A DNA stretch of 40,530 nucleotides. It comes from Acaryochloris sp. IP29b_bin.137. Its GTDB lineage: Bacteria; Cyanobacteriota; Cyanobacteriia; Thermosynechococcales; Thermosynechococcaceae. Positions 16,242 through 33,705 of this stretch are shown piece after piece. The stretch lies in contig NZ_JANQOP010000071.1 in the NCBI RefSeq assembly GCF_028285745.1, positions 1 through 40,530 of the forward strand, written 5' to 3'. Both the position numbers and the translations under genes were made by a program. The notes below the pieces were generated by a model, which made no database searches, had not been told where the DNA came from, and worked only from the letters and a program-made list of their open reading frames with translations. Position 1 is the first letter of the stretch; the number at the start of each line of letters is the position of its first letter.

Positions 16242-18353
16242 TTAGGGCGTTAATAGAGCTTGAAAAGCTTCGTTGTCCCGAATAGGGTCAAAATCGGAGT
16301 CAGTTTTTGCCATTTCCCGATTCTCTTCTGGTGCTAAGGAAATGGCAATCTTTAAGTTTTCTACTGCGGCTTCAGGGTTGGCTTGTAAGGCATAGCAACA
16401 AGCTTTGTTATAAAAAGCATCATCTTTATCCGGCTTGAATTGGAGAGCTTTGTCATAGCTTGTGATCGCCTCTTCGAATCGTCCTAAATTCCCCAGGGCA
16501 ACGCCTCGGTTGTTCCAGGCTTGATCGTCATCCGGCTTGAATTGGAGGGCTTTGTCATAGCTTGCGATCGCTTCTTCGTATCGGCCTAACTTCCCCAGGG
16601 CAATGCCTCGGTTGTTCCAGGCTTCATCTTTATCTGGCTTGAATTCGAGGGCTTTGTCATAGCTTGCGATCGCTTCTTCGTATCGTCCTAAATTCTGAAG
16701 TGCATTGCCTCGGTTGTTCCAGGCTTCATCTTTATCTGGCTTGAATTGGAGGGCTTTGTCATAGCTTGCGATCGCTTCTTCGTATCGTCCTAAATTCTGA
16801 AGTGCATTGCCTCGGTTGTTCCAGGCTAAATCGTAATCCGGCTTGAATTGGAGGGCTTTGTCATAGCTTGCGATCGCTTCTTCGTATCGGCCTAAATTCC
16901 CCAGGGCAACGCCTCGGTTGTTCCAGGCTTCATCTTTATCTGGCTTGAATTCGAGGGCTTTGTCATAGCTTGCGATCTCCTCTTCGTATCGTCCTAAATT
17001 CTGAAGTGCATTGCCTCGGTTGTTCCAGGCTTCATCTTTATCTGGCTTGAATTCGAGGGCTTTGTCATAGCTTGCGATCTCCTCTTCGAATCGGCCTAAA
17101 TTCCCCAGGGCAACGCCTCGGTTGTACCAGGCTTGATCGTCATCCGGCTTGAATTGGAGGGCTTTATCATAGCTTGCGATCGCCTCTTCGAATCGTCCTA
17201 AATTCCCCAGGGCAACGCCTCGGTTGTTCCAGGCTTCATCTTTATCTGGCTTGAATTCGAGGGCTTTGTCATAGCTTGCGATCTCCTCTTCGAATCGTCC
17301 TAAATTCCCCAGGGCAACGCCTCGGTTGTTCCAGGCTTCATCGTCATCCGGCTTGAATTGGAGGGCTTTGTCATAGCTTGAGATCGCCTCTTCGTATCGG
17401 CCTAAATTCCCCAGGGCAACGCCTCGGTTGTTCCAGGCTAAATCGTAATCCGGCTTGAATTCGAGGGCTTTGTCATAGCTTGCGATCGCCTCTTCGTGTC
17501 GTCCTAATCTACGTAGTGAAACGCCTCGGTGGTTCCAGGCTAAATCGTAATCTGGCTTGAATTGGAGGGCTTTGTCATAGCTTGCGATCGCGGATTGATA
17601 ATCAGCTCCAGCAGCAAAAAGATTTCCTAGCTCAAAGAACAAATCTACTTGTTCTCGTGAAATAGCATGAATATCATCAATTAGTTCTTGAATTTCTATA
17701 ATTTTTTGGGTTCGCTCTAGTGGTGAGAGGGCTAAATACTTGTCAAAATCTCCTTCCTGAGTAATTCGTAATGATTCCTGTTGCAAGAGGTGTGAGTTAG
17801 TTCCAAACTCCCAAACCCCAGAACGCCAATCAAAAAAGTCAGGTGCTCGTCTTGTAAAGTATTTCAGAGCAAATAAGGGTACTAAGAAGATAAAGCAAAT
17901 ATCAAAGTCATCTCTAAAACGCTCCCGCTGTAGATTCAAATGACCAAGGATGCGGGGTAGTGTGTTGAGGTTGTAATATTCCCCCTCCCCTTGATAACCC
18001 GGCTTAATGTCAGAAATCAGTGATTTTTCAATGCCAGTAATAAATAGGACATCAATTTGGTCCTTATTAGGTAAGGCCGCAACAATTTCATAAAGGTTAT
18101 CGATGGAGGCTTGTAACCGTAAAACCTCGATTGTTTTTCCCTGAGTAGAGACAGACTGATTCCCTCCAACATCCTCTTGCACCCGTTTGATAAGCTGTTC
18201 TGCTTCCACGGGCGCGCATCGCACAAACAATAACCCAAAACCCTGGGTATATTGAATCGAACGAATCAATGCCCGATATTCTTTTTGCGGGTCTATCTTG
18301 GGTTCTTCACTCCAATCGATAGAGCTTGATGTTGTGGACTGGCTACGAGTCAT
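16242..18353 (-). CDS. TPR-repeat protein with N-terminal RRAPDF-motif domain; partner of an adjacent P-loop ATPase
   Basis: 703 residues. Residues 20-200 form an alpha/beta domain with no Walker A but with 'IDVLFITGIEKS' and 'RRAPDFFDW' (168-176). The same pattern occurs at the start of the NTPase-WD40 protein at 28117. Residues ~245-690 contain about 13 tetratricopeptide-like repeats of 34 residues. Eleven are almost identical (consensus 'AWNNRGVALGNLGRYEEAI' then 'SYDKALxFKPD'), alternating Gln/Glu before FKPD. The array should form a superhelical protein-binding surface. The ATG lies 11 bp inside the end of the upstream ATPase gene, so the two are translationally coupled and probably act together. 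Recent repeat duplication is evident at DNA level. The function is unknown; a sensor or scaffold role is inferred. Confidence 0.88.
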   Translation of the reverse strand: MTRSQSTTSSSIDWSEEPKIDPQKEYRALIRSIQYTQGFGLLFVRCAPVEAEQLIKRVQEDVGGNQSVSTQGKTIEVLRLQASIDNLYEIVAALPNKDQIDVLFITGIEKSLISDIKPGYQGEGEYYNLNTLPRILGHLNLQRERFRDDFDICFIFLVPLFALKYFTRRAPDFFDWRSGVWEFGTNSHLLQQESLRITQEGDFDKYLALSPLERTQKIIEIQELIDDIHAISREQVDLFFELGNLFAAGADYQSAIASYDKALQFKPDYDLAWNHRGVSLRRLGRHEEAIASYDKALEFKPDYDLAWNNRGVALGNLGRYEEAISSYDKALQFKPDDDEAWNNRGVALGNLGRFEEEIASYDKALEFKPDKDEAWNNRGVALGNLGRFEEAIASYDKALQFKPDDDQAWYNRGVALGNLGRFEEEIASYDKALEFKPDKDEAWNNRGNALQNLGRYEEEIASYDKALEFKPDKDEAWNNRGVALGNLGRYEEAIASYDKALQFKPDYDLAWNNRGNALQNLGRYEEAIASYDKALQFKPDKDEAWNNRGNALQNLGRYEEAIASYDKALEFKPDKDEAWNNRGIALGKLGRYEEAIASYDKALQFKPDDDQAWNNRGVALGNLGRFEEAITSYDKALQFKPDKDDAFYNKACCYALQANPEAAVENLKIAISLAPEENREMAKTDSDFDPIRDNEAFQALLTP
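16430..17590 (-). repeat. Tandem array of 102-bp TPR-coding units
   Basis: About eleven units of 102 bp follow one another with few substitutions. Each contains the stretch TTGTCATAGCTTGCGATC or a close variant on the + strand, often completing a HIP1 site GCGATCGC. Between units, differences cluster in a few codons (YEE/FEE, EAI/EEI, KPDKD/KPDDD/KPDYD). Such uniformity points to recent unequal crossing-over or gene conversion. Confidence 0.9.
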
Positions 18354-19719
18354 TCACTTGCTCACGAGAGCGTTTAGTCTGATCCTGCATTTGCTTGAAT
18401 GCCGCCTTAAATTCAGAAACGTCTTTCAACAGAGGATGAACATCATGCCAAGACTCCTCTTCACAATATTCCAACAGACAACGAGTGAATAACAAACTCC
18501 GATGAGCATCGTCATTGATAATTTGTTTAGTGGTATGAACGCCAGCCAATAGATCCCACTGATCAGAATCTACGGTGTCTCGATAGGTCTTGCGTAATTG
18601 CCGAATCGCTTGCTGGAGGGCCTCAGCATCAATGGGTAGCGACTCTTCTTCATTGTACTTAATCGCTGTTTGCACCAGCAGCACTAGATTCCGCACATGT
18701 CCTCCACTCATTTCGCAGAGCTTATTGAGCGTCTCGGCACTGTCGAACACGTCCGTTTCCAGGGCCAGTCTGTTAGCATCTTCGATGGAATCGATCCGCA
18801 TTCTAATAATTTGCTGCAGCTTTTTGATTCCATCTGCAAAGCCATCATTATTCCGAGTATGGGTCATAATCATGGGCAAAACAGGCAACGTACCATCATA
18901 GATCTCTAGTAAATCGGTAGCTCTACGCGACAACGCTAGAGAAATAGGCACCGTGTAGATGACATCACATGCCAAACCCTTTAACTGTTCAGCCCGATCA
19001 ATAAAAATCTCTTCGTGATTTGTGCGCCCTCCTTCATTCGTAATCAACGTTACCTTTTCTAGACCATCCGCAATCAAGACCAACCGCTGTTTATCAGCAG
19101 GCAGTTTCTGCTTCGCATCATCAATAAACTGATTCAGAGCGGCGATGAGTTTCTCCGTATAAGGATTCAGTGCCTTGCGTAGCTTGGCCCGCTGGGTCGG
19201 CTGAGTTTTAAAGCTGGCAGTAATTTTGCCCAGATCACCGACACCGACCTCTGCCCCCGCATTGCTCAGGTTAATTTCCGTCAACATCAAATCTTCAAAA
19301 GCCTTTTTACGCTCTTGAAACCAGCTCAGAACCGGTTTGGGGTCAGCTTCCCGGATAGTTTCTAGTAAATGCCTCGTGCACGCGATCAGAATATCGGTAT
19401 ACTCGACATCCTCTGGGTTAATGTCTTGATCTTCTGCCGAGAAATAAACGACCGTGCAGCCTTTAGTTTCCAGATCTTGTTTTAGCCGCAACAGCTCCGT
19501 TGATTTACCCCCACCTCGGTGACCAGTATAGAGCTGACAGGTCGGCTCATCTGAAAATCGTATGGTTTTTCCCAGCTCGATCAACACATTGCTGCCTCCT
19601 CGCACCTCCTTGCAATCCACATACAATTTGGAATTGGCGGGTAAAGGGGTCGGATTAAAGGCGTTGTAAATCTGACTTATAAGCACTAGATACCGAGGCC
19701 ATGAACACTCTGTCTGCAA
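18343..19719 (-). CDS. P-loop ATPase of the two-gene module (copy 1)
   Basis: Up to 458 residues. Walker A is 'GHRGGGKST' (residues ~66-74) and Walker B is 'RLVLIADGLEKV'. Further conserved segments are 'CDVIYTVPISLALS' and 'EMSGGHVRNLVLLVQ'. The same set, in the same order, appears in the ATPase at 32332 ('GHIGCGKST', 'GLVAIVDSLDRL', 'MVYTTPLVLCFS', 'LVSGGHIRNLLVLL'), so the two are paralogues. The fold looks AAA+/STAND-like. It overlaps the TPR gene by 11 bp. The start is uncertain: the frame opens at a TTG (19719), but by comparison with copy 2 a GTG at 19686 would remove an unmatched N-terminal tail. I cannot assign a named family. Confidence 0.85.
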   Translation of the reverse strand: MQTECSWPRYLVLISQIYNAFNPTPLPANSKLYVDCKEVRGGSNVLIELGKTIRFSDEPTCQLYTGHRGGGKSTELLRLKQDLETKGCTVVYFSAEDQDINPEDVEYTDILIACTRHLLETIREADPKPVLSWFQERKKAFEDLMLTEINLSNAGAEVGVGDLGKITASFKTQPTQRAKLRKALNPYTEKLIAALNQFIDDAKQKLPADKQRLVLIADGLEKVTLITNEGGRTNHEEIFIDRAEQLKGLACDVIYTVPISLALSRRATDLLEIYDGTLPVLPMIMTHTRNNDGFADGIKKLQQIIRMRIDSIEDANRLALETDVFDSAETLNKLCEMSGGHVRNLVLLVQTAIKYNEEESLPIDAEALQQAIRQLRKTYRDTVDSDQWDLLAGVHTTKQIINDDAHRSLLFTRCLLEYCEEESWHDVHPLLKDVSEFKAAFKQMQDQTKRSREQVNDS

Positions 19720-19784
19720 TTCTAGAAGGATTGTGACTCAGTTGTGTGAATTATCAAGCCTGTACGTTCACAAGCATCTGGTGG

Positions 19785-20379
19785 CTAACTGTTCAAAGCG
19801 TGTAGTTCTTGCAGAAAATCTTTCACGGCCTGCGGTTGGTCTTGGGGCTGCACAAATTGGGCCAATATCTCAAAATCCAGGTCAGAAAAAAACTGGCTAC
19901 GAGTCACAACTTCCATCCTTTCACGCAAATCAAAAAGCTGAAGCCGATCATCCTGCCAAATCAAAACCTCTGGCACCCCCAACCCCTGATACATCTCCAG
20001 CTTATCTCCCCCCCCCACTCGTCAAATTCACCTCAATCGCAAAATCAGGCAAATCCTTCAATCCCTGCACGCAATAACACTCATCCGGCTCCAGCCCTCT
20101 TGCCTTAGCTTCCAGCCGAAACGTCGTCGATCCATATCCATGCAGCGGGGTATCTACCTCTTCTGCATACCGCTCCAGCAAGCGGGCAATCACCTTCTTC
20201 AGCATTTCATGTTCAGGCGAAGGCCTAAAAATCTCTAAATTTCCCTGCAAGTACAACAAGCGCAACCCAGGATAATCCTCTAGCGTTGATAACAACCCCT
20301 CATACTGCTGCCAAGACACACTGGGGAGAATCACACGCTGATCTTCCGTTGTGGATGGCAATGGCATGAAAGTGGTCAT
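19785..20379 (-). pseudogene. Uma2-family (DUF820) gene frameshifted in a G9 run
   Basis: From ATG 20379 the protein reads normally ('PLPSTTEDQRVILPSVSW', 'LLYLQGNLEIFRPSPEHE', 'LKDLPDFAIEVNLTSGGG') and then stops at 20002. The rest of the family sequence ('DKLEMYQGLGVPEVLIWQ' and on to 19785) continues in another frame. On the coding strand the junction is a run of nine G (plus-strand C 20008-20016). Removing one G joins the two parts exactly as 'LTSGGGDKLEMYQGLGV'. The gene is therefore either inactivated by slippage, phase-variable, or miscalled in sequencing. Otherwise it has full length (~197 residues) and the putative active-site residues (PDFAIEV). It lies upstream of the ATPase/TPR module on the same strand. 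Confidence 0.85.
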
Positions 20380-20572
20380 AGTCAACAATCTCCCAAGAGC
20401 GGCCTTGATCTTGGATAGTTAATGATTGATTCAGCTCGGCATTGAGCCTAGTTCGTAATCCTGCCAGTGCTTCAGTTGCAGGCTGTCCCTGGCCTTGGTC
20501 AAATTCTTTTAGCCCTTCAAGAATTCCTTGCACTGTCTTCAAGTACTCCAAATACTCAATAGGATTCAGCAT
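20300..20572 (-). CDS. Small hypothetical protein upstream of the broken Uma2 gene
   Basis: A 90-residue frame from ATG 20572 begins 'MLNPIEYLEYLKTVQGIL' and has a predominantly helical, charged composition. I do not recognise a family. Its last ~27 codons overlap the start of the Uma2 gene at 20379 in a different frame, so either the C-terminal end is run-on sequence or the two genes are tightly coupled. The first ~60 residues look like genuine coding sequence, with soluble composition and no rare-codon clusters. It is in the same orientation as Uma2 and could be its partner. Confidence 0.5.
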   Translation of the reverse strand: MLNPIEYLEYLKTVQGILEGLKEFDQGQGQPATEALAGLRTRLNAELNQSLTIQDQGRSWEIVDYDHFHAIAIHNGRSACDSPQCVLAAV

Positions 20573-20655
20573 TGCCAATTTTCTATGTCTACAATTTAGC
20601 AATCAAGAGGTGAGAGCTGAGCGTTACCTAAGCCTAACTCCAATCATTCTAAGCC

Positions 20656-22617
20656 TCACCAATTCTTCCAGTTCAGATTAAAAATCGACATATCTGGAAA
20701 CGCCGTTGGATTTTGATTTCGATTCAAAATCGCCTGTAGCTTCTCCAACCTCGGACTTCGGCGGGGCAAATTCTCCACCAACTGATAGGGCAATACCCCC
20801 TGATCCAGCACAAACGCCGCCGTCGTTCCCGCTGCCGCCCCCGACGACCATTCAAAACTATGGACCCGATAAGTCGCCGCACTAATGTGACTCGTGGCAA
20901 TACTCTTCCCCGTCACCAGCAAATTATTGATCCGATGTGGAATCATCGCCCGCAGGGGAATTTGATAGGGATAGGTTTGCGTCGCCCCCTGACGTTCCCC
21001 TGGCCGTTCTTGATTGCCTGGCGCTTGGGGAGGACTAAGCTGCATACAGGGATGGAAATCAATCGGATAGTGACCAATACCCACACTGTCCGGATAAATG
21101 CGAGATCTGGTTCGCAGCTCCACTTCTGCTAGCGGCACGCGATCCAAAATTACATCCAGAGTTTTTAACCCCGCCATCCGGGTAATCAAATTCCGGTAGT
21201 CCGGTCCCGATAGGGTGTTGCGGTAATAGGGCAACCGGAAATCCTGCTTAGAGACATCCGTTTCCGTAATCACAAAACCTTGAGGATAGCCATAGCTGTA
21301 GCGACTAATTAAGCGCCGACTCTCCCGCATATAGGGAAACTTGGACAAACCGTGCGCCGTTCCCATCGGCGAATCTAGCCCTTTTAAGTATTTGAGATTG
21401 GGCCAAGGCTGCTTGGGAGGGTCTGCCACCTTAGAATCCGTGGTCCCGGCTACCAGCCAGTAGAAATAGCCCTGAGCTAATTCCTCACCCCCCTGCAAAC
21501 TGGCAATCCGTAAACCCCCCTGCCAATCTTGGAGCTGCCCTTCCGCCAGCAGCTGGTCTCGGGTCAAAATCAGGTTGTCTTGGGCGGTGCCAGGTCCGTA
21601 GTCATTGCCTCCACCCCAGTTCTGCATGGAGATATCGCCTACATTCACCTCCTCATCTGCGGTGCCTGGTTGGACGCTAAAAATACGGCGATAGCTAAAG
21701 ACTAGGTTGGGCGTTTGGGCATAGCGAGGTTTGTCAAAACTATAGAACGGCTCATATTCAGGGTAGAACGCAGGCGGCTGATGAACTGGCGGAGTTGCAG
21801 TGGCCTGCATGGCAAAGGTATAGGTGCTGGCCTGGGTGCAGTAAGGGTCAGCCTGTTTGCTGGAGGATGACGGCTCTAGATGGGACCGTGGATCAATGCC
21901 CAAGCGATAGGGGAGGTCTGCTAGCGCCAGCAATTCCCCCGTTTCTGTGGCCTCTACCACGATCCATTGCCCGGTGGCGGGCGGCTGGAATTGCAGAATC
22001 GTTTTGGTAAAGCGATCCGAATCTTCTTCGGTGTAGCTGTCAGCCAGAGTTTGGGAGAGGGGATAGGTATTGAGAGGGGGTGCTCCGGGGGCAGGCTGAT
22101 GCTGAATGGCTCGGACTGAGGAAATTAAATCACCACCAGAATTGGTTGCTAGAGACTTGACCACCGTATTGGGAAATAGATGGAGCTTGCCTTCACCTTC
22201 GGCTTCCGCTATTTTCAGCATGTCTAGAAGGAGGGTATGCCCCTGTTGGGGTAAAAAGCAGACCAGGCTGACCCAGCAATCGCCGGGGCGATCGCGTCCT
22301 GATACCTCAATCAATCGCTGGCGAAATTGGGCATAGCCTCTGGGGAAAATCCCGCGAGTGCGTTGGCCTACGGTTTCATCTAAGGCTGAAGTGCCCTGGG
22401 ACGAAATTTGGCCGCCCCACCAGTCTGTTAGCTCCGTCATACACACCTGACGCCCTGCCATTAAAGCTTCATAGGTGGTGGCAACCCCTGCCAGACCACC
22501 CCCCACGACTAAAATGTCGCAGTTAACCGTGCGATCAACCGGGCGTGGTGCTGCGAGAGCAGAGACACCCCCCATACTCCACAGAGCCGTAACGATTGCC
22601 CAGACAGATCGGTTCAT
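20656..22617 (-). CDS. Exported FAD-dependent oxidoreductase
   Basis: 653 residues. An N-terminal signal-like segment ('VWAIVTALWSMGGVSALAA') precedes the dinucleotide fold 'CDILVVGGGLAGVATTYEAL', the motif of the FAD_oxidored family. 'TDWWGGQISSQGTSALDE', 'WIVVEATETGELLALADLPY' and the C-terminal 'NNLLVTGKSIATSHISAATY' then 'GAAAGTTAAFVL' are typical of this group. Export implies work in the periplasm or lumen. The substrate is not identifiable. The gene stands alone, with 46 bp to the DUF4335 gene upstream on the same strand. Confidence 0.8.
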   Translation of the reverse strand: MNRSVWAIVTALWSMGGVSALAAPRPVDRTVNCDILVVGGGLAGVATTYEALMAGRQVCMTELTDWWGGQISSQGTSALDETVGQRTRGIFPRGYAQFRQRLIEVSGRDRPGDCWVSLVCFLPQQGHTLLLDMLKIAEAEGEGKLHLFPNTVVKSLATNSGGDLISSVRAIQHQPAPGAPPLNTYPLSQTLADSYTEEDSDRFTKTILQFQPPATGQWIVVEATETGELLALADLPYRLGIDPRSHLEPSSSSKQADPYCTQASTYTFAMQATATPPVHQPPAFYPEYEPFYSFDKPRYAQTPNLVFSYRRIFSVQPGTADEEVNVGDISMQNWGGGNDYGPGTAQDNLILTRDQLLAEGQLQDWQGGLRIASLQGGEELAQGYFYWLVAGTTDSKVADPPKQPWPNLKYLKGLDSPMGTAHGLSKFPYMRESRRLISRYSYGYPQGFVITETDVSKQDFRLPYYRNTLSGPDYRNLITRMAGLKTLDVILDRVPLAEVELRTRSRIYPDSVGIGHYPIDFHPCMQLSPPQAPGNQERPGERQGATQTYPYQIPLRAMIPHRINNLLVTGKSIATSHISAATYRVHSFEWSSGAAAGTTAAFVLDQGVLPYQLVENLPRRSPRLEKLQAILNRNQNPTAFPDMSIFNLNWKNW

Positions 22618-22663
22618 GACGCTCGCGAATTTTTAGGTGCAACTTGAGTTAATAGGTAGGACG

Positions 22664-23485
22664 TTAAGGAAATGCTTCCGGTTCTGGCGAAGCCTCTGGA
22701 CTCGGCGAAGCCTCTGGACTTGGAGATGCCTCAGTGCTCTCCGGGCTGGGAGATGCAGCAGGTGTTTCACCCGGTGTGGGGGATTCTCCAGAGGTAGGCG
22801 ATACCGGGATTGCAGGAGGCGAGACGCCAGGAGGGGCGGTCCCTGGGGCAGGCGTTTCGGTACTTGTGGGTGCGGCTTTTGGCGGATCTTTTGGCGGCTT
22901 GCTGGCTTGGGGAACGGGTAGAAAGTAGAAGGCTGAAGCTGCGATCGCAATACTCGCGGCCCCCAACACAGCGGGGGTAGATTTTTGCAGAGCCTGACCG
23001 GAAGCCGCTTCTGAGCGCGAGAGAGGCCGCACCGCCAAAGACAGATTAGGCAAGGTCTGCTGATCGGCCAGGAGCTGATCCAAGGCTTCGACCAGATCAA
23101 AAAGCTGCAGCGTCGTTAAGTTGACCCGAATCGGATCCTCTGCGCCGCTGGGCGTTTCGTTGAGGAGCTCCGTGGGAATGGTTAGTTCAAACCCGTCTTC
23201 TGTTTTGGGCAATAGATGCACGGCAGACTGATCTTGATTGAGCTTGGTTAGCCGACGATGGGGGACACCACTCATCCAGGACTGGGTACATTGGTTAGTG
23301 GCTTGAATCAGGCTATTCAGCAGATCTAAGCCGCCCGTGAGGGGCTGCTTTAAATCTCCAAATTGGCATTCCAGCCGCAGAAGGACATCTAAGGAGCCTC
23401 CGATGGCAGCATCGGAAACGGAATTACTGATGCCTTCTAGGTAGAGGGTACAGTTGGGCAAAATAAATTGGCGTTGAACGGTCAT
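22664..23485 (-). CDS. DUF4335-family protein with Pro/Ser/Glu-rich tail
   Basis: 273 residues. The N-terminal ~150 residues ('QRQFILPNCTLYLEGISN', 'TTLQLFDLVEALDQLLAD') match the cyanobacterial DUF4335 family as I recall it. A single hydrophobic helix ('ALQKSTPAVLGAASIAIAASAFYFLPV') follows at about residues 165-193. The last ~75 residues are low-complexity, with short repeats of the type E-A-S-P-S-P, probably extracytoplasmic. The gene starts 5 bp after the DUF3038 gene; these two families commonly neighbour each other in cyanobacteria. Function unknown. Confidence 0.75.
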   Translation of the reverse strand: MTVQRQFILPNCTLYLEGISNSVSDAAIGGSLDVLLRLECQFGDLKQPLTGGLDLLNSLIQATNQCTQSWMSGVPHRRLTKLNQDQSAVHLLPKTEDGFELTIPTELLNETPSGAEDPIRVNLTTLQLFDLVEALDQLLADQQTLPNLSLAVRPLSRSEAASGQALQKSTPAVLGAASIAIAASAFYFLPVPQASKPPKDPPKAAPTSTETPAPGTAPPGVSPPAIPVSPTSGESPTPGETPAASPSPESTEASPSPEASPSPEASPEPEAFP

Positions 23486-23490
23486 TGGGG

Positions 23491-24096
23491 TTAGGCCACT
23501 TCTCCATCAAACAGACTAGACCAAAATCGCTCCATTCCGGCAGTTCCGGTACAAAATAGCACCTGTTCTAGCAAGCTTAAAGCCAGCTCATCTAGCCGCT
23601 CATTTTCTTTGTAATCCGCAATAGCGGTCCGATTTGGATTCATCCGACTGCGAAAATGACGGCGAAATCGCTCTAAATAATTGGCTAACGGCACACTGTG
23701 ATCGGGGGTGAGCTGTTTCTCGGCGAGCTGCCGCTGGACGTTGAGGAGCTGGCGCACCTGGGCGGTTTGCCGACGAGCAATATGGCATCCCACAGCCACC
23801 AGGGCTTTGGCCTTATCTAGACTGAGGGGGTCTCGCTGGTGCGATCGCCGTAGCGGATTGGTATTGCGAGACTGCCAAAAGTCCACTCGATTTTCAATCA
23901 CATCTTGGAGCTGCAGTTCTTCCAAGCTCATCAACATCAATTCCGAGGCATAGAGGTCTAATGCTTCGATGGCCAGCAACACAAAATCGAGTTGAATCCG
24001 GGTTCGTCGAGGACAAACTTGGTTGGGAACATCTGGATCGGACAGGGTCTTGAGGATGGGAGAAACGAATTGTTCAGTGGGGCTATCGGCTTGCAT
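23491..24096 (-). CDS. DUF3038-family protein
   Basis: 201-residue, mostly helical cytoplasmic protein with 'RTRIQLDFVLLAIEALDLYASELM', a central region rich in Arg/Gln, and 'ENERLDELALSLLEQVLFCTGTAGMERFW'. I recognise it as the cyanobacteria-specific DUF3038 family, whose role is not known. It is the first gene of a two-gene unit with the DUF4335 protein (5-bp gap). It diverges from apt across ~285 bp. Confidence 0.75.
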   Translation of the reverse strand: MQADSPTEQFVSPILKTLSDPDVPNQVCPRRTRIQLDFVLLAIEALDLYASELMLMSLEELQLQDVIENRVDFWQSRNTNPLRRSHQRDPLSLDKAKALVAVGCHIARRQTAQVRQLLNVQRQLAEKQLTPDHSVPLANYLERFRRHFRSRMNPNRTAIADYKENERLDELALSLLEQVLFCTGTAGMERFWSSLFDGEVA

Positions 24097-24380
24097 TACG
24101 ATTCCATTACGACAAGAATACGAAAGATATGTTCGAACGACTGAGGAAACCTTAGCATTGGCATCCAGATCTAGACTGCCCGCAAAAGCCCCTCGACGAT
24201 GCGTTTCGCTAAAAGTTCACATCCAATCCGACCTGATTTGGCTGGGGATTAAAAGGGATTGGCAGAAGCGTCCAGATGGTCAACCACATTAGTGTACGAT
24301 TTCTGACGTACCGTCTCCTGTCCTTTAATCAGGATAAAAGGTCATCTTTCCTATTCACCTTGCGTCACATCACAACACCT

Positions 24381-24931: not shown

Positions 24932-26809
24932 GTGTTTCAAGGTCTGATCACCCTGTTTTTGGCATCGCTACTGACCTTTTATATCGTCGATCTCGCACCC
25001 GGTGACTACCTCGATCGGTTTAAAAATGATCCCCAAATGTCGCCAGAACGGCTGGAAGAACTGCGACAAGAATTTGGGTTGGGCAATACCTGGGGCGATC
25101 GCAGTCCCGTTACGACCCTCAATAGTAAGAAGACCACTGCTGTAGCCATCCAGCCGGATGGTAAACAGGTGATTACAGGCGGAACAAACACCGTCACCCT
25201 CTGGGATGATAAGGGAACGGTCGTTAAGTACCTCGAAGGGCATCAAGGTCCAATTACGGCCTTAGCCTTTAGTCCCGATGGCGAATTAATTGCCTCTGGT
25301 AGTGCAGACCAAACGATTAAGCTCTGGAAAGCTGATGGCACGTTGGTTAATACCCTGAACGGTCATGAAGGGGCAGTGACGAGTTTGGCCTTCAGCAGCG
25401 ATGGGAAAACCTTTGCGTCGGGGAGTGCAGACCAAGCAGTGCGCCTGTGGAAAACTGATGGCACGCTGCAGCAAACCCTAGCAGGGCATAAAGGTTCAAT
25501 CGCAGTCCTGGCCTTTAATCCAGACGGCAGTCTTTTGGCGTCGGGGAGTGCAGACCAAACGGTACGCCTGTGGAAAACCGATGGCACGCTGCAGCAAACC
25601 CTAGCACATCAAGGGGCCGTTACGGCCCTGCAGTTTAATCAAAATTCAGCGGGGCCACTCCTCAATACCATTACCAATCATCAGACCTGGCAGCAATGGA
25701 ATTTGGACGGCACCTCTCTGAAAACTCAGGATCTTAAGCAACTACAATCCCAACTCATCACCTCGGCAGCCTTTAGCCCCGATCTCACTACCTTTGCCAC
25801 CAGCGCGGGCAAAACGGTGCGTCTGTGGTCCCAAAAGGATAACCAGCTCTTGGGCCATTTTGACGGAAAACAAGCCCCGCTGCAGGGCCTGCTGTTTACC
25901 GATAATGGGGAGCGACTTATCCTGGTTAATGCCAATCAATCAGTACAGGTTTGGCAAAAGGATCGCTCTTTGATCAAGCAGTACGGCCTCTGGCTGAGAA
26001 ATATTTTTACCTTTGATTTTTCCCAGATTTGGAAGGGTAACTGGGGACAAATCTACCAAGGCGACTTTGGTGAAAGCTTTAGCTATCAGCGACCTGTGAC
26101 AGCACTGATCTGGGAGCGGATTCCCAACACGCTGCTATTGGCGATGGCCTCCCTGGTGATTAACTGGAGCATTGCCATTCCCTTAGGGATTATTGGGGCG
26201 GTGAATCAGAATCAGTGGAGCGATCGCATCCTCCGTATCTTGAGTTATATCGGTCAGGGTTTTCCCAGCTTTATCACGGCTTTACTGCTGCTGTTTCTGG
26301 CCCAGAGTACGCCCCTATTCCCCGTGGGCGATATGACCAGCATCGATCATGCCGATCTCAACTGGCTTGGCCAGATCTTGGATGTGGGCTGGCATATGAT
26401 TCTGCCAACTGTAGCCCTGAGTATTACTGGTTTTGCAGGTCTTCAGCGGATTACCCGAGGCAATATGCTAGATGTTCTGCGTCAAAACTATATTCAAACG
26501 GCCCGTGCCAAAGGTTTACCGGAAAATAAGGTGATCTATACCCATGCCCTCCGCAATGCCGTTAATCCCCTGATTACCCTATTGGGGTTTGAATTTTCTA
26601 GCCTTTTAGGGGGAGCCTTTATTGCTGAATTCTTTTTCAACTGGCCAGGACTGGGGCAATTGTTGCTGAAAGCAGTGCAGGCCCAAGATCTCTATTTGGT
26701 GATGGCGGGGTTAATGATGGGGGCGGTGATGCTGATTGTAGGCAATTTGCTGGCGGATATTCTCCTGGCCGTCGTCGATCCGCGCATTAAGCTGAGTAAC
26801 CTGAATTAG
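24932..26809 (+). CDS. DppB-type ABC transporter permease with a WD40 beta-propeller inserted in its first periplasmic loop
   Basis: 625 residues. The start (TM1 'LITLFLASLLTFYIVDLAPGD', then 'MSPERLEELRQEFGL') and end ('GDFGESFSYQRPVTALIWERIPNTLLLAMASL', EAA loop 'YIQTARAKGLPENKVIYTHAL', 'PLITLLGFEFSSLLGGAFIAE') are a normal dipeptide/nickel-class permease. Between 'EFGL' and 'QYGLWLRNI' (about residues 55-350) lies an insert with WD40-type repeats ('LEGHQGPITALAFSPDGELIASGSADQTIKLW' class, at least four clear copies and several weaker). In DppB this loop faces the periplasm, so the propeller should be extracytoplasmic. GTG start at 24932; the frame is open further upstream, so the true N-terminus may be slightly longer. 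No binding protein or ATPase genes are nearby. Confidence 0.88.
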   Translation: MFQGLITLFLASLLTFYIVDLAPGDYLDRFKNDPQMSPERLEELRQEFGLGNTWGDRSPVTTLNSKKTTAVAIQPDGKQVITGGTNTVTLWDDKGTVVKYLEGHQGPITALAFSPDGELIASGSADQTIKLWKADGTLVNTLNGHEGAVTSLAFSSDGKTFASGSADQAVRLWKTDGTLQQTLAGHKGSIAVLAFNPDGSLLASGSADQTVRLWKTDGTLQQTLAHQGAVTALQFNQNSAGPLLNTITNHQTWQQWNLDGTSLKTQDLKQLQSQLITSAAFSPDLTTFATSAGKTVRLWSQKDNQLLGHFDGKQAPLQGLLFTDNGERLILVNANQSVQVWQKDRSLIKQYGLWLRNIFTFDFSQIWKGNWGQIYQGDFGESFSYQRPVTALIWERIPNTLLLAMASLVINWSIAIPLGIIGAVNQNQWSDRILRILSYIGQGFPSFITALLLLFLAQSTPLFPVGDMTSIDHADLNWLGQILDVGWHMILPTVALSITGFAGLQRITRGNMLDVLRQNYIQTARAKGLPENKVIYTHALRNAVNPLITLLGFEFSSLLGGAFIAEFFFNWPGLGQLLLKAVQAQDLYLVMAGLMMGAVMLIVGNLLADILLAVVDPRIKLSNLN

Positions 26810-26813
26810 GCCG

Positions 26814-27110
26814 ATGAATACTGCTCTGTACTATACGTACTATACGCTTCGCTCTCGGGCTGATGGCAATTATTTAGCCGCTCAGCCAGATCCAGACGCG
26901 ACCCAGCGCTACTTACTGCTGTTCCCTGAGCATTATGATGCCCTCAGTTACCTCAATACCCATGCCCAAGCTGCTGCGTCTAAGTTTAGCGTTGAGTCCA
27001 TTGGTAAAAGTCAAATTCGCGGCATTCTGGACCGCTGGCAATACCAAGGCATCGGTATGGTCCAAGATCCCCTGATCCCCCGCATAGAATTTATGAGTTT
27101 GGCAGGATGA
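26814..27110 (+). CDS. Small conserved hypothetical protein upstream of tyrA
   Basis: 98 residues beginning 'MNTALYYTYYTLRSRADGN', with 'QRYLLLFPEHYDALSYLN' and a C-terminal 'FSVESIGKSQIRGILDRW'. No catalytic motif or membrane helix is seen. The gene lies 4 bp after the permease stop, and its own stop overlaps the tyrA start (ATGA), so it is co-translated with both. I do not recognise its function. The tight packing and balanced composition argue that it is real. Confidence 0.75.
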   Translation: MNTALYYTYYTLRSRADGNYLAAQPDPDATQRYLLLFPEHYDALSYLNTHAQAAASKFSVESIGKSQIRGILDRWQYQGIGMVQDPLIPRIEFMSLAG

Positions 27111-27943
27111 AAATTGGCATCGTTGGCCTCGGTTTAATTGGCGGTTCTTTAGCCTATGACTTTCGAGCCCTGGGGTATAAAGTGTTGGGTGTCAGTCGCC
27201 AACCCCAAACCTGTGAAGATGCAGTTAAATTGGGGGCCGTCGATACCGCTAGTGCCGATCTCGCGTCCCTCGCGTCTGTGGATGTGGTGTTTATCTGCAC
27301 CCCGGTGAGTGTGATTGATGCGATCGCAACCCGTTTGATTCCTTATCTTTCTCCTGAGGCAATTTTGACGGATGTTGGTTCTGTGAAAGGGCCAGTCGTG
27401 AAGCGTGTCACCCCTTTATGGCCCCGTTTTTTGGGAGGGCATCCAATGGCAGGCCGGGAAGTGACCGGCATTCAAGCTGCACAATCCCACTTATTTGCGC
27501 AGAATCCCTATATCCTGACTCCTACTACTAAGACCCCACTGGATGTGATCGACGTGATGAGAAAGCTGGTGGGTGAGCTGGACGGTGATTTATATGAATG
27601 TTCTCCTGGCATTCATGATCGAGCCGTTGCGTGGATTTCCCATTTGCCCAAGATGGTGAGCGCGGCCTTAATTGCAGCCTGCGTCAGTGACGCTGATCCA
27701 GATATTGTTCAACTGGCCCAAGCTTTTGCCAGCTCTGGGTTCCGAGATACGAGTCGTGTAGGCGGCGGCGATCCAGAGCTGGGCTGTATGATGGCACAGT
27801 ACAACCGAGAAGAATTGTTGCGATCGCTCTACCAATACCGCCAAAGTCTTGATCAGCTCACCGATATCATTGAATGTTCAGACTGGTCAGCTTTAGATGC
27901 TTTGCTCCAGCAAACGCAAGCAGAACGACCAAAATTTTTGTGA
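27107..27943 (+). CDS. tyrA: Prephenate/arogenate dehydrogenase
   Basis: Oxidative step to tyrosine; cyanobacterial members usually use arogenate and NADP. 278 residues with the nucleotide fold 'IGIVGLGLIGGSLAYDF', 'VFICTPVSVIDAI', 'ILTDVGSVKGPVV', the substrate-contacting 'LGGHPMAGREVTGIQAAQ', and the helical C-terminal dimerisation half with 'ISHLPKMVSAALIAA' and 'FRDTSRVGGGDPELGCMM'. It overlaps the preceding gene by 4 bp. The last ~55 codons have a second, divergent copy at 33842-34021, so this 3' end may have been exchanged when the adjacent island arrived. Confidence 0.94.
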   Translation: MKIGIVGLGLIGGSLAYDFRALGYKVLGVSRQPQTCEDAVKLGAVDTASADLASLASVDVVFICTPVSVIDAIATRLIPYLSPEAILTDVGSVKGPVVKRVTPLWPRFLGGHPMAGREVTGIQAAQSHLFAQNPYILTPTTKTPLDVIDVMRKLVGELDGDLYECSPGIHDRAVAWISHLPKMVSAALIAACVSDADPDIVQLAQAFASSGFRDTSRVGGGDPELGCMMAQYNREELLRSLYQYRQSLDQLTDIIECSDWSALDALLQQTQAERPKFL

Positions 27944-27946
27944 AAG

Positions 27947-28009
27947 GCTCAAATTGCCCAAGCTCTCGGCATTAAACGGGCAACGGTTCAGTGCTGGGCT
28001 CAACGGTGA
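27947..28009 (+). pseudogene. Helix-turn-helix fragment, probable transposase remnant
   Basis: Immediately after tyrA, 20 codons read 'AQIAQALGIKRATVQCWAQR' and then stop. This resembles the helix-turn-helix at the start of IS630-type and related transposases. No start codon or continuation is present, so it can only be a scrap. It lies exactly at the left edge of the insert bounded by the two tyrA ends, which makes a transposition-related origin attractive but unproven. Confidence 0.4.
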
Positions 28010-28116
28010 CACGAAAAGTCCCCTAGTCATCATAATGTCGCCATAATAATGTTGTCGGGGGAGGAAGTGCTGAATAATTTTCAGCTAAACTGAGTCGATA
28101 TCCTCAAGTAAGTGTA

Positions 28117-31100
28117 ATGGGGACAGACAATTTTTCACTGAGCCTGGAACAAGACAGCAGCATTAAGCAGTTGCTGCGGGCCATCAAGCTTTCTGCGGGT
28201 GAGTTCGCTTTGCTGCTGGCCCAGTGTAATTCAGAAGATTTGCGTGATCGCCTCCTTCAAGTCTTGCAGTCCCACCTTGGTTCAGGACTCTACATGTGGC
28301 AGGCGACGCCTGAACTGGGGGCGGTGAACCTGGTGGAGGTCTTAGAGGATGCCCCCGAGGGCACTCAGGTTGCTTGCGTGACGGGCTTAGAACCCTCGCC
28401 GCATCTGAACGATATCTTGGCAATCGCTAACAATGCCCGCGAGGAATTCCGCAAGCGGTTGGCTTTTCCGGTGATCATCTGGGTGACCGATGACTCAGAA
28501 ATAGAACTGCGACGGCGCGCGCCGGACTTTACCAGTTGGGCGGCACCGCCGATTGTGTTTCAGTTGGAACCCGCTGAGCGCCAGGAGATCTTAGAGCGCA
28601 AAACCGCTGCCGTGATTGACTGGGCCTTTTCGCGGGAGGGTCGGCATGGCACCGGGGCAGAACTGAAGCGGATCTGGCAGAAGCTGGACGGCAGTGGAAC
28701 CGAGATCGCACCCGATTTAGCGGCGCGGGTGGCCCTGGTATTCGGGATTGAGGGGGGCAGCGATCCGTCCGCGCGGGAGGCGCTAGAGCGGTGCTTGGCC
28801 CTCGCCCATGAAGGGCCGCTGGCCGCCGCCGCCTGTTATCGGTTGGGTCTGTGGTGGGAGCGGCAGGGCAAACGCAATCGAGCCGAGTTTGTAAGCTGCT
28901 GCAAGCAAGCTCTAGCAATGCTACAACGGGCATGGCATTACGAGACCGGACGACGTCCTAATGTGGCACTGGCGTTGGGTGGGGTGCTGCTGGCCTTGGC
29001 GCTCCAGGAACCAGAGGATTCGCAGCCGTGGGCAGCCGTTGCGGACTTTGCAGATTCTTTAAGTTTCTTATCCGAGTTTGCCGGTGGGTTGCGGGCCGAG
29101 GTGGCGCTGGCGCGAGGAGAACCGGCGACGGCGCAACAGGAGGCGGAACAAGCCTTACAGGGGAATGAACCTGAACGGGCAGGCTTCTACCGTTTGGCCC
29201 TGGGGCGATCGCTCATAGACTCAGACCAGGCACCGGAGGCCGTCACTTCGCTGGAGCAAGCGCGGGAGGCCGTCCCACCAGAGGCCGACCCCGATTTGCA
29301 TATTCGCATCCTACGGGCGCTACACCGGGCTTATACGCTCACTGGAAATTATCGGCAAGCCTTTGCGGCTAAGTGTGATCGCGAGGCCGTGGAAACCCAA
29401 TACGGGTTCCGGGCGTTTATTGGGGCGGGTCGGTTGCGCCCGTTGCGGCAGGTGGGGGCGCTGGGGGAGGTGGTCACAGAAGAAATTGCGGCATCCGGTC
29501 GGCAAGCAGATATTGAAGCGCTGGTGGCACGGGTGAAGCGGAATGATTGTCGGCTCACGGTAATTCACGGGCCGTCGGGGGTAGGCAAAAGTTCACTGAT
29601 TCAGGCGGGGTTGGTGCCTGCCTTGCGTCGATTAATGCATCAATCTCGTTCGGTGGTGCCCATCGCTATTGAACGCTATGACAACTGGCAGGGGGAGCTA
29701 GCGCAACAGCTCCAGGGGGGATCTTCGCCAGCTCCTCTGCAGCCTGGTTCAGAAACGTATCAGATTGGAGAGCCTGAACAGAGTGGAGTCTCCTCTACTC
29801 AACTTATTGCCTTCCTGCGTGAGAATTATCGCCGCCATTTGATCACGGTGCTGATTTTTGACCAGTTTGAGGAGTTCTTTTTTCAGCATCTGGATCTACC
29901 GGGACGCCGCGAGTTTTATGGGTTTTTGCGAGACTGCCTAGATGTGTCCTATGTGTGGGTATTTTTGTCCCTGCGGGAGGACTATATTCACTATTTGTTG
30001 GAGTGGGATCGCCTCGCCAATTTAACGGCAATCGGCAATGACATTCTCAATAAGAATGTACGCTACTACTTGGGCAATTTTTCTGCGGAGCGGGCTAAGG
30101 GGGTGATTGGTGAGCTGATGGGGAAGTCGCCCTATCGGTTTGAGGTGGCCCTGGTTGATCGCTTGGTGGCCGATCTGGCGGCAGCATTAGGAGAGGGTGC
30201 GCCCCATTGAGCTACAGGTGGTGGGGGCGCAGATGGTGCAGGGGGAGAACCAGGTCACCACTTTGCAGGCTTATGAGGCTCTGGGGGCGGTGCCCAAGCA
30301 AGCCCTGGTGGAGCGATGGTTGGCGCAGGTGATTCAAGATTGCGGTCAGGACAATGAGGAGTTGGCGCAGCGGGTCCTCTATGCGCTAACGGAGGAACCA
30401 GAGAAGCGCCCAACGAAGACCCAAACGGAGCTGCGGCGGGAGGTGCGGTTGCGTGGTTCTGGCCTGACGCCGGAGGAGCAGGAGTTTTCTGTGGCAGGGG
30501 ATCTTGGCTTTGTGTTGACGGTGCTGAGGGGGTCGGGTTTGGCCTTTGAAATACTGGCGACGCCGGAGGTCAACTATCAGTTGGTGCATGACTATTGGGT
30601 AAGGCCTATTCGGCAGCAGTTTGGGGTGAAGTTGACCCAGCAGTTAGAAGCAGAGCGGCAGAGGCGCAAGCAAGCGGAAGCTGATCGAGATGCGGTGCAA
30701 GAGCAGCGGTTGAAAGAGGCTCAAGTTAGTAATCGTAGATTGAGGCGAATTTTGGGGGGTACCATTGTGGCTGCGGTTGTGGCTTTGGTTGCGGGTGGAT
30801 TTGCTACTTGGCAGCAGTGGGTGGCAGATATCAATGCCCTCAATTCGCAGGCAGTGGCTGAGAGCCTCTATTGGGAAAGTTTGATTGACGCCAATATCTT
30901 GGGTCTGAATGAACAGGTTGAGGTATTAACCAACGCCAAAGCATGGCACAGCAAACTGAAGAACCTGCGCGGTGGGAATCGCATCGATTTACTGTCAACG
31001 TTCTCTCTGGCCGAGAGCATACCCAAAGAAAAATCTCGCTTTATGGGCCACCAGGGTTCCGTCTCTAGCGTGGCCTTCTCCCCTGATGGCAACACCCTCC

Positions 31101-31936
31101 TCACGGGCAGTGGGGATAGAACCGCGAAGCTGTGGACCCGCGACGGTAAACTGCTGCACACCTTCCAAGGCCACCAGTCTGAAGTCTTGAGTGTGGCCTT
31201 CTCCCCCGATGGCAACACCCTCCTCACCGGTAGTAGGGATGCCACCGCGAAGCTGTGGACCCGCGACGGTAAACTGCTGCACACCTTCCAAGGCCACCAG
31301 AGTCTCGTCTCTAGCGTGGCCTTCTCCCCCGATGGCAACACCCTCCTCACGGGCAGTGGGGATAGAACCGCGAAGCTGTGGACCCGCGACGGTAAACTGC
31401 TACACACCCTCCAAGGCCACCAGGATGGCGTCTCTAGCGTGGCCTTCTCCCCCGATGGCAACACCCTCCTCACCGGTAGTAGGGATACCACCGCGAAGCT
31501 GTGGACCCGCGACGGTAAACTGCTGCACACCTTCCAAGGCCACCAGTCTGAAGTCTCTAGCGTGGCCTTCTCCCCCGATGGCAACACCCTCCTCACCGGC
31601 GGTTGGGATACCACCGCGAAGCTGTGGACCCGCGACGGTAAACTGCTGCACACCTTCCAAGGCCACCAGGGTTCCGTCTCTAGCGTGGCCTTCTCCCCCG
31701 ATGGCAACACCCTCCTCACCGGCAGTGAGGATGCCACCGCCAAGCTGTGGGATCTCAATCTAGATCACATTTTGTCAGCGATGTGTGACCACTTGCAGGA
31801 CTTTGTAGCGGGTCGAAACCTTCCCGATTTGCCAGAAGAAGAGCGTCAATTAAGAATGCGCGCCCACGATGCCTGTGCCGACATCCCGCCCCTCAAAGGT
31901 GCCCGCCAGCCATCAGCCAACCAACAACAAAAATAG
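28117..31936 (+). pseudogene. RRAPDF-domain / STAND-like NTPase / WD40 protein, split by a +1 frameshift
   Basis: First frame 28117-30210 (697 codons), second 30197-31936. Removing one G from GAGGGTG at 30193-30199 restores 'GEVRPIELQVVG' and a ~1272-residue protein. Order: RRAPDF domain (1-165, 'ACVTGLEPS', 'RRRAPDFTSW' at 132-141) shared with the TPR protein at 16242; helical region (170-430); NTPase with Walker A 'GPSGVGKSSL' (~485) and Walker B 'TVLIFDQFEEFF' (~578); winged-helix-like part; charged coiled coil; one membrane helix ('ILGGTIVAAVVALVAGGF'); and six WD40 repeats. This is the layout of membrane-anchored novel-STAND sensors. It is GC-richer than tyrA and petH. An ATPase paralogous to the one at 18343 follows on the same strand. 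It could be a true pseudogene, a sequencing error, or two polypeptides. Confidence 0.85.
31046..31760 (+). repeat. Array of six near-identical 123-bp WD40-coding units
   Basis: Each 41-residue unit starts GHQ, has 'VAFSPDGNTLLTG' and ends 'AKLWTRDGKLLHT'. Only a few positions vary: the two or three residues after GHQ and the residues around the GSGD/GSRD/GGWD turn. DNA identity between units is very high. The last unit departs at 'WDLNLDHIL'. Because of the uniformity, long open frames appear on the opposite strand; these are artefacts of the repeat. Confidence 0.92.
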
Positions 31937-32331
31937 GTTCGACTCAACACCCTGAACAGAGCAAAGCTTCTCGCGGCCCCCTAAATCCCCCATTCTGGGG
32001 GACTTAGAGCCTACAGCCAAGCTGAATCGTGGGGCCAACATCTCAAACATATTGCTCTCAAATCTGATTGTGAATATTCGTGCCAAAAACAGGTCAAGTC
32101 CCCCACTGGTGGGGGATTTAGGGGGAGAGTGCAAGGGTGAAAGCGATAGATTTTGAATATTCATGCCAGAAAACAGGTCAAGTCCCCCACTAGTGGGGGA
32201 TTTAGGGGGAGAGTGCAAGGGTGAAAGCGATAGACATACATTTACCCCAAATCATACCAGCGGGCCATTAAAATGCAGGTGGCGTTTATGCTTAACAGTA
32301 ACCCTACCGTCGATGTGATTGGAACGCAACC
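31937..32331. repeat. Intergenic block with an ~80-bp direct repeat and poly-C/poly-G palindromes
   Basis: Two copies of an ~80-bp unit, 32071-32150 and 32154-32234, differ at only a few positions. Each contains a hairpin, CCCCCACTGGTGGGGG or CCCCCACTAGTGGGGG, followed by ATTTAGGGGGAGAGTGCAAG. A related inverted element (CCCCCTAAATCCCCC and CTGGGGGACTT) lies at 31978-32005. The hairpins could end transcription of the WD40 gene before the ATPase gene. This kind of palindromic filler is common between cyanobacterial genes. No gene is seen in this 395-bp stretch. Confidence 0.8.
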
Positions 32332-33705
32332 ATGCCCCTCGACCCCAACCAATTTTTCAAAGCCTGTAACCCCAGCAAACCGCTCATCCTCGCAAATGAG
32401 GGAGATCGCCCCTACTACATCAACTTCACCCAGGCCCGCACCAGCCGACCGGGTTCCGTTAGCCTTATGGATGAACTCTACCGCACCATCACCCGCAACG
32501 ACGATCCCACCCACCAACTCTTTACCGGCCACATCGGCTGCGGCAAATCCACCGAACTCCGCAAACTCCAATATGATTTAGAGCAAGCCGGGTTCCACGT
32601 CGTCTATCTCGACTCCACCGAAGATCTGGTCATGACCGACGTCGATATCTCCGATCTGCTCCTCACCGTCGCCCGCCAAATTAGTAAAAGTCTGGCGACA
32701 GCCGATATCCACCTCGATCCCCAAGGCTTCCAAAACCTCCTGCAAAAAACCTGGACCCTCCTCAATAGCGACGTCGATCTGTCCGGTTCCGCCACCTTGC
32801 CCACCCCCCTGCCTGGAATTGGCTCTGTCACCGCCAGCGTTGGCCCCACCGGAGAGACCAGCATCGATCTGGGCATTGCCAAACTCAGCGCCAGACTCAA
32901 AAATAACCCCTCTGCCCGCGCCCGCCTCCGTCAACACCTCGAACCCCAAACAGACAATCTCCTAGAGTTAATCAACCAAGAACTCCTCGCCCCCGCCACC
33001 CAGGCTTTGCAAGCGCGCGGCTACAAAGGACTCGTCGCCATCGTCGATAGCCTCGATCGCCTCGAAAACACCCAAGAACGCAACCAAGCAGAATATATCT
33101 TCGTCACCCGTGGCGAAAAACTGCGGCAGCTTAACTGCCATATGGTCTACACCACTCCCCTTGTTCTCTGCTTCTCCAACTCCATTGCCCCCCTCAGCGA
33201 TCGCTTTGGCGGCGTGCCCAAAGTATTACCAATGGCGCGGGTCCAAAACCGCGACGGCATCCACCATTCCGACGGCATTGACCTGTTAAAGCAACTGATT
33301 CTCGCCCGCGCCTTCCCCAAGCTCTCCCCCGCAGAACGCCCCGAATACCTGAGCGAGATATTTGATCACCCAGAGACCTGCGATCGTCTCTGTCTGGTCA
33401 GCGGCGGCCACATTCGTAACCTACTGGTCCTCCTCTACGGCTGTCTGCAAAAGCAAGATCCCCCCCTCGATCGTGACACCCTCGAAGACGTCATCTCCGT
33501 GCAGCGGGACGCATTGGTTCGTGCCATTCAAGCCCAAGAATGGGAATTGCTTAACCAAGTTAAAGCCCAAAAAGCCGTCGTCGGGGAGGAAGGATACCAT
33601 ACACTCTTGCGGAGCCTGTTCGTCTTCGAATACCGGGACGAGAAAGGCACCTGGTTTGGACTCAATCCCATCCTGGCTGAAGCTCAACAGTTTGCGGCAT
33701 CATAA
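32332..33705 (+). CDS. P-loop ATPase of the two-gene module (copy 2)
   Basis: 457 residues from ATG 32332. Walker A 'GHIGCGKSTELRKLQYDLE' lies around residues 65-83. Walker B is 'GLVAIVDSLDRLE'. The later conserved segments 'MVYTTPLVLCFS' and 'LVSGGHIRNLLVLL' match copy 1 at 18343-19719 in content and spacing. Codon choice here is strikingly C-rich at third positions compared with petH downstream. It follows the frameshifted NTPase-WD40 gene, separated by repeats, so it is less tightly coupled than copy 1, and the gene order is reversed. Probably works with the RRAPDF-domain protein; biochemical role unknown. Confidence 0.87.
   Translation: MPLDPNQFFKACNPSKPLILANEGDRPYYINFTQARTSRPGSVSLMDELYRTITRNDDPTHQLFTGHIGCGKSTELRKLQYDLEQAGFHVVYLDSTEDLVMTDVDISDLLLTVARQISKSLATADIHLDPQGFQNLLQKTWTLLNSDVDLSGSATLPTPLPGIGSVTASVGPTGETSIDLGIAKLSARLKNNPSARARLRQHLEPQTDNLLELINQELLAPATQALQARGYKGLVAIVDSLDRLENTQERNQAEYIFVTRGEKLRQLNCHMVYTTPLVLCFSNSIAPLSDRFGGVPKVLPMARVQNRDGIHHSDGIDLLKQLILARAFPKLSPAERPEYLSEIFDHPETCDRLCLVSGGHIRNLLVLLYGCLQKQDPPLDRDTLEDVISVQRDALVRAIQAQEWELLNQVKAQKAVVGEEGYHTLLRSLFVFEYRDEKGTWFGLNPILAEAQQFAAS

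Follow-up and report, generated by a model that had tools for sequence, protein, structure and literature searches.

What kind of system is formed by two gene pairs that each join a small P-loop ATPase to a protein ending in near-identical tandem repeats? The question is raised by a contig of Acaryochloris sp. IP29b_bin.137 (NZ_JANQOP010000071.1, positions 1 to 40,530; this whole stretch of 40,530 nucleotides is called the window below), in which an original prediction had proposed two copies of an unnamed bipartite system, in which the ATPase and the N-terminal domain of its partner (the N-domain) stay constant and are combined with swappable, rapidly expanding repeat arrays. Following up this proposal, we find the constant ATPase and the constant N-domain to be a real two-component NTPase system, encoded by neighboring genes whose trees agree, and we suggest that it may act as a split receptor.

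An ATPase and a partner gene that travel together

The open reading frames (ORFs) of the window pairs lie where they had been proposed, with one exception described further below, and all of the ATPase and N-domain motifs listed for them are present. Pair 1 is encoded on the minus strand in the order ATPase then partner, with an 11-base overlap at the end of ATPase 1 (18343..19719; 458 residues from a TTG start, with family homology from about residue 11). Partner 1 (16242..18353, minus strand; 703 residues) consists of an N-domain (17643..18317), AAA+-like by its predicted model and without a Walker A motif, followed by a TPR array (16420..17591). On the plus strand, ATPase 2 (32332..33705; 457 residues) belongs to the ATPase 1 family and lies 3′ of its own partner, which begins with an N-domain (28123..28713) likewise predicted to be AAA+-like. 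As had been claimed, the two ATPases are related (35% identical; expectation value (E) 4.6e-57), and share GHRGGGKST/GHIGCGKST, YTVPISLALS/YTTPLVLCFS and SGGHVRNL/SGGHIRNL (ATPase 1/ATPase 2). The N-domains of partners 1 and 2 carry TGIE/TGLE and RRAPDFFDW/RRAPDFTSW; their pairwise similarity is weak (26% identical, E 1e-6), and both fall into a single profile family rather than into unrelated folds, so that the proposed sharing of this domain holds. A third pair in the same genome, on contig C301 (locus L036, 103-2003), comprises a C-terminal ATPase piece, the rest being cut off by the contig end, followed by a partner that carries QQAPDF and TPRs.

With ATPase 2 as the query, a match was found in 67 of 292 cyanobacterial genomes (the window genome included), with up to nine matches each. 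Nine plasmid records also hold an ATPase (Nostoc, five; Acaryochloris, two; Calothrix, one; the acidobacterium Acidisarcina, one), while a scan of viral contigs with ATPase 1 alone as the query returned no relative. A profile scan of named genomes yielded at least 560 confirmed relatives. From these we retained 79 distinct loci: 76 are cyanobacterial, and Chloroflexi, Competibacteraceae and Chromatiaceae contribute a single locus each. The genomes of these last three also hold N-domains, and ATPase and partner stand side by side in loci L169, L175, L224 and L225. The Chromatiaceae draft genome has four loci (L224-L227), two with a full-length ATPase beside a partner and two with ATPase pieces only.

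Pairing was assessed in 38 hand-picked genomes searched whole with both profiles, 25 with and 13 without an earlier ATPase match; weak, partial or same-gene rows were dropped or merged (6 of 110 for the N-domain and 15 of 105 for the ATPase), which left 104 and 90, respectively. An N-domain lay within 3 kb of 82 of the 90 ATPase places, always on the same strand and in 81 cases downstream, and 84 of 104 N-domains were linked as against 0.6 expected by chance. No N-domain was found in the 13 genomes chosen for having no earlier ATPase match. The neighborhood survey thus bore out the association that the original prediction had made, and a recount of the six richest genomes gave up to seven linked pairs per genome. 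Among loci fetched for holding an ATPase, 129 contain 132 adjacent pairs, 69 of them with a gap of zero or less and 37 overlapping by 4 base pairs (bp). Moreover, the ATPase and N-domain trees of 123 pairs (131 before a redundancy filter) agree with r 0.90, the maximum of 1000 shuffles being 0.15, an agreement to which shared species history contributes.

Two consecutive ATPase genes occur only in L037 and L050 among 154 loci, and of 156 N-domain proteins only the partners in these same loci, two in all, have a doubled N-domain. This suggests one N-domain per ATPase. Since L037 and L050 are sister lineages on the tree, the matched doubling is one event seen twice. No ORF holds both an ATPase and an N-domain.

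Other arrangements were also seen. One ATPase between two N-domain partners, or two partners in succession, occurs in L079, L082, L086 and L174 (9053-17059). In four loci the ATPase stands alone, lacking an N-domain partner: L041 (5741-7117), L042 (5954-7312), L043 (6948-8294) and L045 (5932-7284), each near a gene that we take to be aroE.

One intact core and one predicted to be AAA+-like

The small protein of each pair is an ATPase of the AAA+/STAND type, as judged by motifs and fold. Walker A is present in all 155 ATPases and a Walker B pattern in 140 of 155. The AlphaFold2 model of ATPase 1 (predicted local distance difference test (pLDDT) 93.6) has an ORC-like fold with C-terminal helical and winged-helix-like parts, and its Foldseek matches include ORC1/Cdc6, SSO1545, PABY2304, RdrA and the plant resistosome, with archaeal STAND-like ATPases among them. 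Most ATPase ORFs are ~430-520 residues long and contain little beyond the ATPase itself; no arginine finger was assigned in it. The family resembles KAP and AAA P-loop NTPases: at E ≤0.1, 45 ATPase relatives match KAP_NTPase (PF07693) in 37 cases, AAA_22 (PF13401) in 45 and AAA_16 (PF13191) in 44, the relative in L229 exceeds the KAP_NTPase cut-off (34.4 bits vs 20), and one plasmid relative bears the annotation KAP family NTPase. DAP3/mS29 is among the weak matches (two of 45 members; E 0.038).

In contrast to the ATPases, none of 145 N-domains has Walker A as GxxxxGK[ST], and the looser [GA]xxxxGK occurs in seven of 145. The N-domain model (pLDDT 87.6) nevertheless orders its strands and helices as a P-loop NTPase does. 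Its top Foldseek matches are ORC2, ORC and CbbX, with archaeal ORC2 first (E 3e-5), and nearly all PDB matches of the model among the best 50 listed are AAA+ proteins. On the strength of this predicted model, the N-domain appears to be AAA+-like; a PDB sequence search with it returned annexin chance matches only (E 0.87 and up). The 'RRAPDF' signature, originally taken as constant, turned out to be variable: RR stands in 23 and HR in 42 of 145 N-domains, of which at least 110 have an Arg at one or other of the two positions preceding APDF. The D of the signature is invariant in 56 aligned members.

C-terminal modules and repeat turnover

The two window partners had been described as differing completely after the N-domain, which is a fair description; TPR matches in partner 2 are not significant (E 0.27-0.68). 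Across the family, a Pfam scan of 126 of 127 selected C-terminal regions (up to ~430 residues each; commonest 25 of 193 families) found TPR_12 in 113 of 126, and because TPR_12 is this frequent overall it is also found in at least 27 of ~40 regions with an nSTAND1-like P-loop. The subfamily of pair 2 carries nSTAND1, often with WD40, and one deep branch carries NACHT. When module type was placed on a FastTree ATPase tree, for which the program warned of long branches, only two changes were needed among the 113 labelled of 123 pairs. Labels comprised 37 nSTAND1 and two NACHT by phmmer and 74 TPR-only (58 that met the TPR pattern and 16 by default); 10 pairs with short or truncated C-termini were left unlabelled. 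The nSTAND1 type forms a single clade with local support 100. From these two changes and the single clade it follows that the window pairs represent old sister subfamilies with no recent swap, and free swapping of C-terminal domains is rejected. Of the proposed swappable, expanding repeats, the expansion and the change at their faces proved real, but the swapping was not supported.

The expected homogenization of the repeats is evident in the window, whose TPR and WD40 arrays are tandem and near-identical at the DNA level: the TPR array of partner 1 repeats a 102-bp unit 11.5 times (90% match) and the WD40 array of partner 2 (31046..31750, plus strand) a 123-bp unit 5.7 times (89% match). Residue changes in the WD40 array cluster at blade positions 4, 5, 23 and 25. 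In the 43 of 151 partners with 34-residue arrays (332 units), the ratio of non-synonymous to synonymous change (pN/pS) was 1.10 at the positions we take to line the TPR groove, compared with 0.31 elsewhere, and 1.71 compared with 0.25 at ≥80% unit identity (28 proteins); per-position TPR profiles had been seen before this groove test was made. For the WD40 face, at positions picked after the data were seen, pN/pS was 1.09 vs 0.27 (nine proteins). Array length varies as well: by motif count, readable arrays in loci with a cofG-like gene hold 2 to 22 TPRs, some partners in these loci being cut by contig ends, and five loci with ftsQ- and ftsZ-like genes hold 7 to 11 WD40 repeats. Comparable variable sites have been reported on the ligand-binding faces of fungal NLRs (PMC4986451).

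The exception to the proposed gene structure is partner 2. The stretch 28117-31936, given as one ORF, consists of two ORFs in different frames, both on the plus strand and meeting at 30197-30210, which rules out a single intact ORF. The first (28117..30210; 697 residues) holds the N-domain, a helical region and the first part of nSTAND1, which it matches including its own P-loop; the second (30197..31936; 579 residues from a GTG start) ends in the WD40 repeats. The frame break falls inside nSTAND1, and both parts are collinear within one protein in all eight relatives compared. Given an assembly of 373 contigs and 88% completeness, the break may be either an assembly error or the mark of a pseudogene. 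Pair 2 also differs in order: its partner comes first and the ATPase follows 395 bases behind, the opposite of pair 1. Each of the 132 adjacent pairs in the fetched loci runs ATPase then partner, in a count whose distance limit pair 2 itself exceeds. In its closest relative, L039 (ATPase 76% identical), a related WD40 tail is likewise upstream.

Between partner 2 and ATPase 2, an 84-bp palindrome-bearing repeat occurs in two direct copies (32066..32234, plus strand); the assembly contains no other exact match to a 30-base core of it. Among the window genes scanned near the pairs, which are part of the window genes, we found a FAD oxidoreductase, Uma2, DUF3038, an ABC permease and a prephenate dehydrogenase. 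The Uma2-family gene (15575-16162, minus strand) adjoins pair 1, and its cluster is present in four pair loci. The ABC-transporter permease (24932-26809, plus strand) has BPD_transp_1 at residues 415-620, and its N-terminal half contains an inserted WD40 array (residues ~96-340).

Conflict-system links and a split-receptor reading

A link to STAND and conflict systems, suspected in the original prediction, is supported by relatives outside the window. The second ATPase of L037 (a Calothrix plasmid) and that of L050 are fused to TIR_2 (E 4.9e-33 and 1e-32); no other toxic-type domain was seen in fusion with the ATPase. In L068, the gene for a family ATPase stands last in an operon with those for iSTAND (E 1.4e-20), a MoxR-like AAA protein and a CoxE-type vWA protein. 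In L229 (a Nostoc plasmid), the ATPase makes up the C-terminus (residues 550-971, E 1e-49) of a SAV_2336-type protein whose gene stands behind VMAP (VMAP-C E 1.1e-33) and MoxR. MoxR-vWA operons with VMAP or iSTAND are described as predicted conflict systems by Kaur et al. 2020 (PMC7159879). The pairs thus resemble these ternary systems through L068 and L229, and differ from that description in that MoxR, vWA, VMAP and iSTAND are absent from the window genes scanned near the pairs. The ATPase of L068 is fronted by a 242-residue extension (5285-6010) that matched no Pfam family.

The TIR fusions bear on an alternative in which the pair is a toxin/silencer unit: the repeat partner would keep the ATPase or TIR-ATPase inactive, and loss of the partner to an invader would free it. 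Frequent translational overlap would fit such a unit, as would the TIR-ATPase adjoining a double-N-domain partner, whereas eight of 90 ATPases lack a linked partner and, with TIR as the sole toxic-type fusion, most ATPase ORFs are of the short form described above. We consider this alternative very unlikely.

Among published plans, the nSTAND2 two-gene system of Kaur et al. 2021 (PMC8195603) is the closest when compared by description. Its account in that paper is of two adjacent genes with an active and an eroded STAND module, predicted to form a hetero-oligomer, the eroded module being fused to variable modules of which GT4 or HEPN are the commonest. The pairs studied here share the two adjacent, co-directional genes and the constant cores, one with Walker A in every member and the other, AAA+-like by model, with none; unlike the GT4 or HEPN effectors described there, their variable regions are sensor-looking (TPR, nSTAND1-WD40 or NACHT). 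Is the pair, then, simply a member of this predicted counter-invader system, already named in 2021? The equal plan argues for it, as do the weak DAP3/mS29 matches of the ATPases, a likeness also published for nSTAND2. The prevalence of TPR_12, where GT4 or HEPN would be the commonest modules, argues against it, although GT4 or HEPN may still occur among the rarer families; so does the lack of an assigned arginine finger in the ATPase. We hold membership to be rather unlikely. No paper naming this gene pair was found in the open-access literature searched (supplements not covered).

Other known proteins share parts of the plan. The WRAP protein Npun_R6612 (PMC9218822) is described as a STAND protein whose WD40 blades were amplified recently, with broken propellers and a coupled TIR-STAND gene; it resembles the pairs in being a cyanobacterial STAND-type protein with amplified WD40, and its description mentions neither a small ATPase partner nor an inactive N-domain of AAA+-like type. 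Fungal HNWD/HET-E NLRs, as portrayed in PMC4986451, offer an analogy in their near-identical WD40 or TPR repeats, ligand-face variation, length changes and NTPase switch, in one polypeptide rather than two genes. Avs proteins, which according to the description in PMC10907252 usually unite effector, ATPase and sensor on a single polypeptide, and bacterial NACHTs likewise combine an ATPase switch with a repeat-type sensor; unlike Avs, the pairs are split over two genes, and no effector was seen in those of the window.

In the reading that we favor, and consider about an even bet, an active and an inactive STAND subunit together make up a split, NLR-like sensor-switch in each pair. ATP would be hydrolyzed by the small protein, an AAA+/STAND ATPase by motifs and fold. 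The AAA+-like domain of the partner, lacking Walker A, may dock on this ATPase to build a mixed oligomer, while the TPR array, or the nSTAND1-WD40 region in the other subfamily, would use its repeat face to bind a protein ligand. If STAND proteins are a guide, this binding would then switch the ATPase and drive assembly of the complex. The output may come from a domain carried by the ATPase or by a partner in trans, such as TIR in the rare relatives where it is fused. The repeats change in number and at their face residues as the two cores remain paired, and the likely role would be the recognition of phages, other invaders or altered self proteins, that is, a putative immune output or defense role.

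The fuller version of this proposal we put forward more tentatively, at somewhat short of even likelihood: that the pairs are mostly cyanobacterial, widespread split NLR-like receptors, made of an active STAND ATPase and a dead AAA+ subunit that are encoded by two genes and form a mixed ring, with up to seven pairs per genome, with TPR and WD40 arrays that diversify at ligand faces in convergence with fungal HNWD, and with TIR or ternary modules pluggable onto the ATPase.

Several results weigh against the split-receptor proposal. On the side of the cores, the Foldseek template-modelling score of the N-domain is only ~0.4, Pfam searches with 56 N-domain members gave nothing beyond chance, and the window ATPases reach no Pfam or NCBIfam cut-off (NCBIfam far below). 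Profile-profile comparison of N-domain and ATPase is not significant (probability 1-2%), so their common ancestry is not established, and the eight ATPases without a linked N-domain (three of them partial rows, one of the L068 type) depart from strict pairing. On the side of function, no effector domain was seen in the window pairs by domain scan. The TIR loci L037 and L050, being sister lineages, are one event, and among 386 cyanobacterial genomes, with at most three candidates scored per genome, TIR fusion was found in only one (G024). PADLOC matches to the candidate PDC-S20 (47 of 58 ATPases, best E 2.5e-8) and to mad8 (nine of 58, best E 3.3e-7), for which no cut-offs are given, are weak and partial in the rows seen, and the core proteins matched no named anti-phage system at cut-off in PADLOC or NCBIfam. 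The repeat signature, finally, is shared by control TPR proteins without an N-domain (groove 1.32 vs 0.36; four passing the criteria out of 20 control regions fetched) and by two TPR and two WD40 ORFs without an N-domain in the same loci, which are possibly partner pieces. Groove hypervariability was accordingly dropped as evidence unique to the pair.

To these points must be added that 27 of 123 pairs sit in loci holding one of six housekeeping-like marker genes, which we take to be cofG, ftsZ, ftsQ, gshB, grx and one unnamed gene. This rules out a reading of the pairs as belonging to mobile islands only, and it favors an alternative without an immune role, namely a housekeeping AAA+ chaperone or assembly machine in which the ATPase would remodel clients recruited by the TPR or WD40 partner. 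The solo ATPases in four loci near the presumed aroE gene, the deep co-inheritance with only two module changes, and the CbbX and clamp-loader folds also present among the Foldseek matches point the same way. Such a machine would, however, sit poorly with the patchy spread among cyanobacterial genomes and up to nine matches in one of them, with the nine plasmid records, with the TIR fusions and the placement in VMAP and iSTAND operons, and with the variable repeat number and face residues, and we hold it to be unlikely.

If the pairs are receptor-like, as the split NLR-like proposal has it, they would add a common two-gene plan to bacterial STAND biology. The division of labor that it implies, in which one subunit burns ATP and a dead subunit carries the fast-changing sensor, is testable, and a direct test of subunit pairing is offered by the two loci L037 and L050, where ATPase and N-domain are doubled together. 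The parallel with fungal NLR repeats, in turn, would make convergent receptor diversification a testable question in bacteria.

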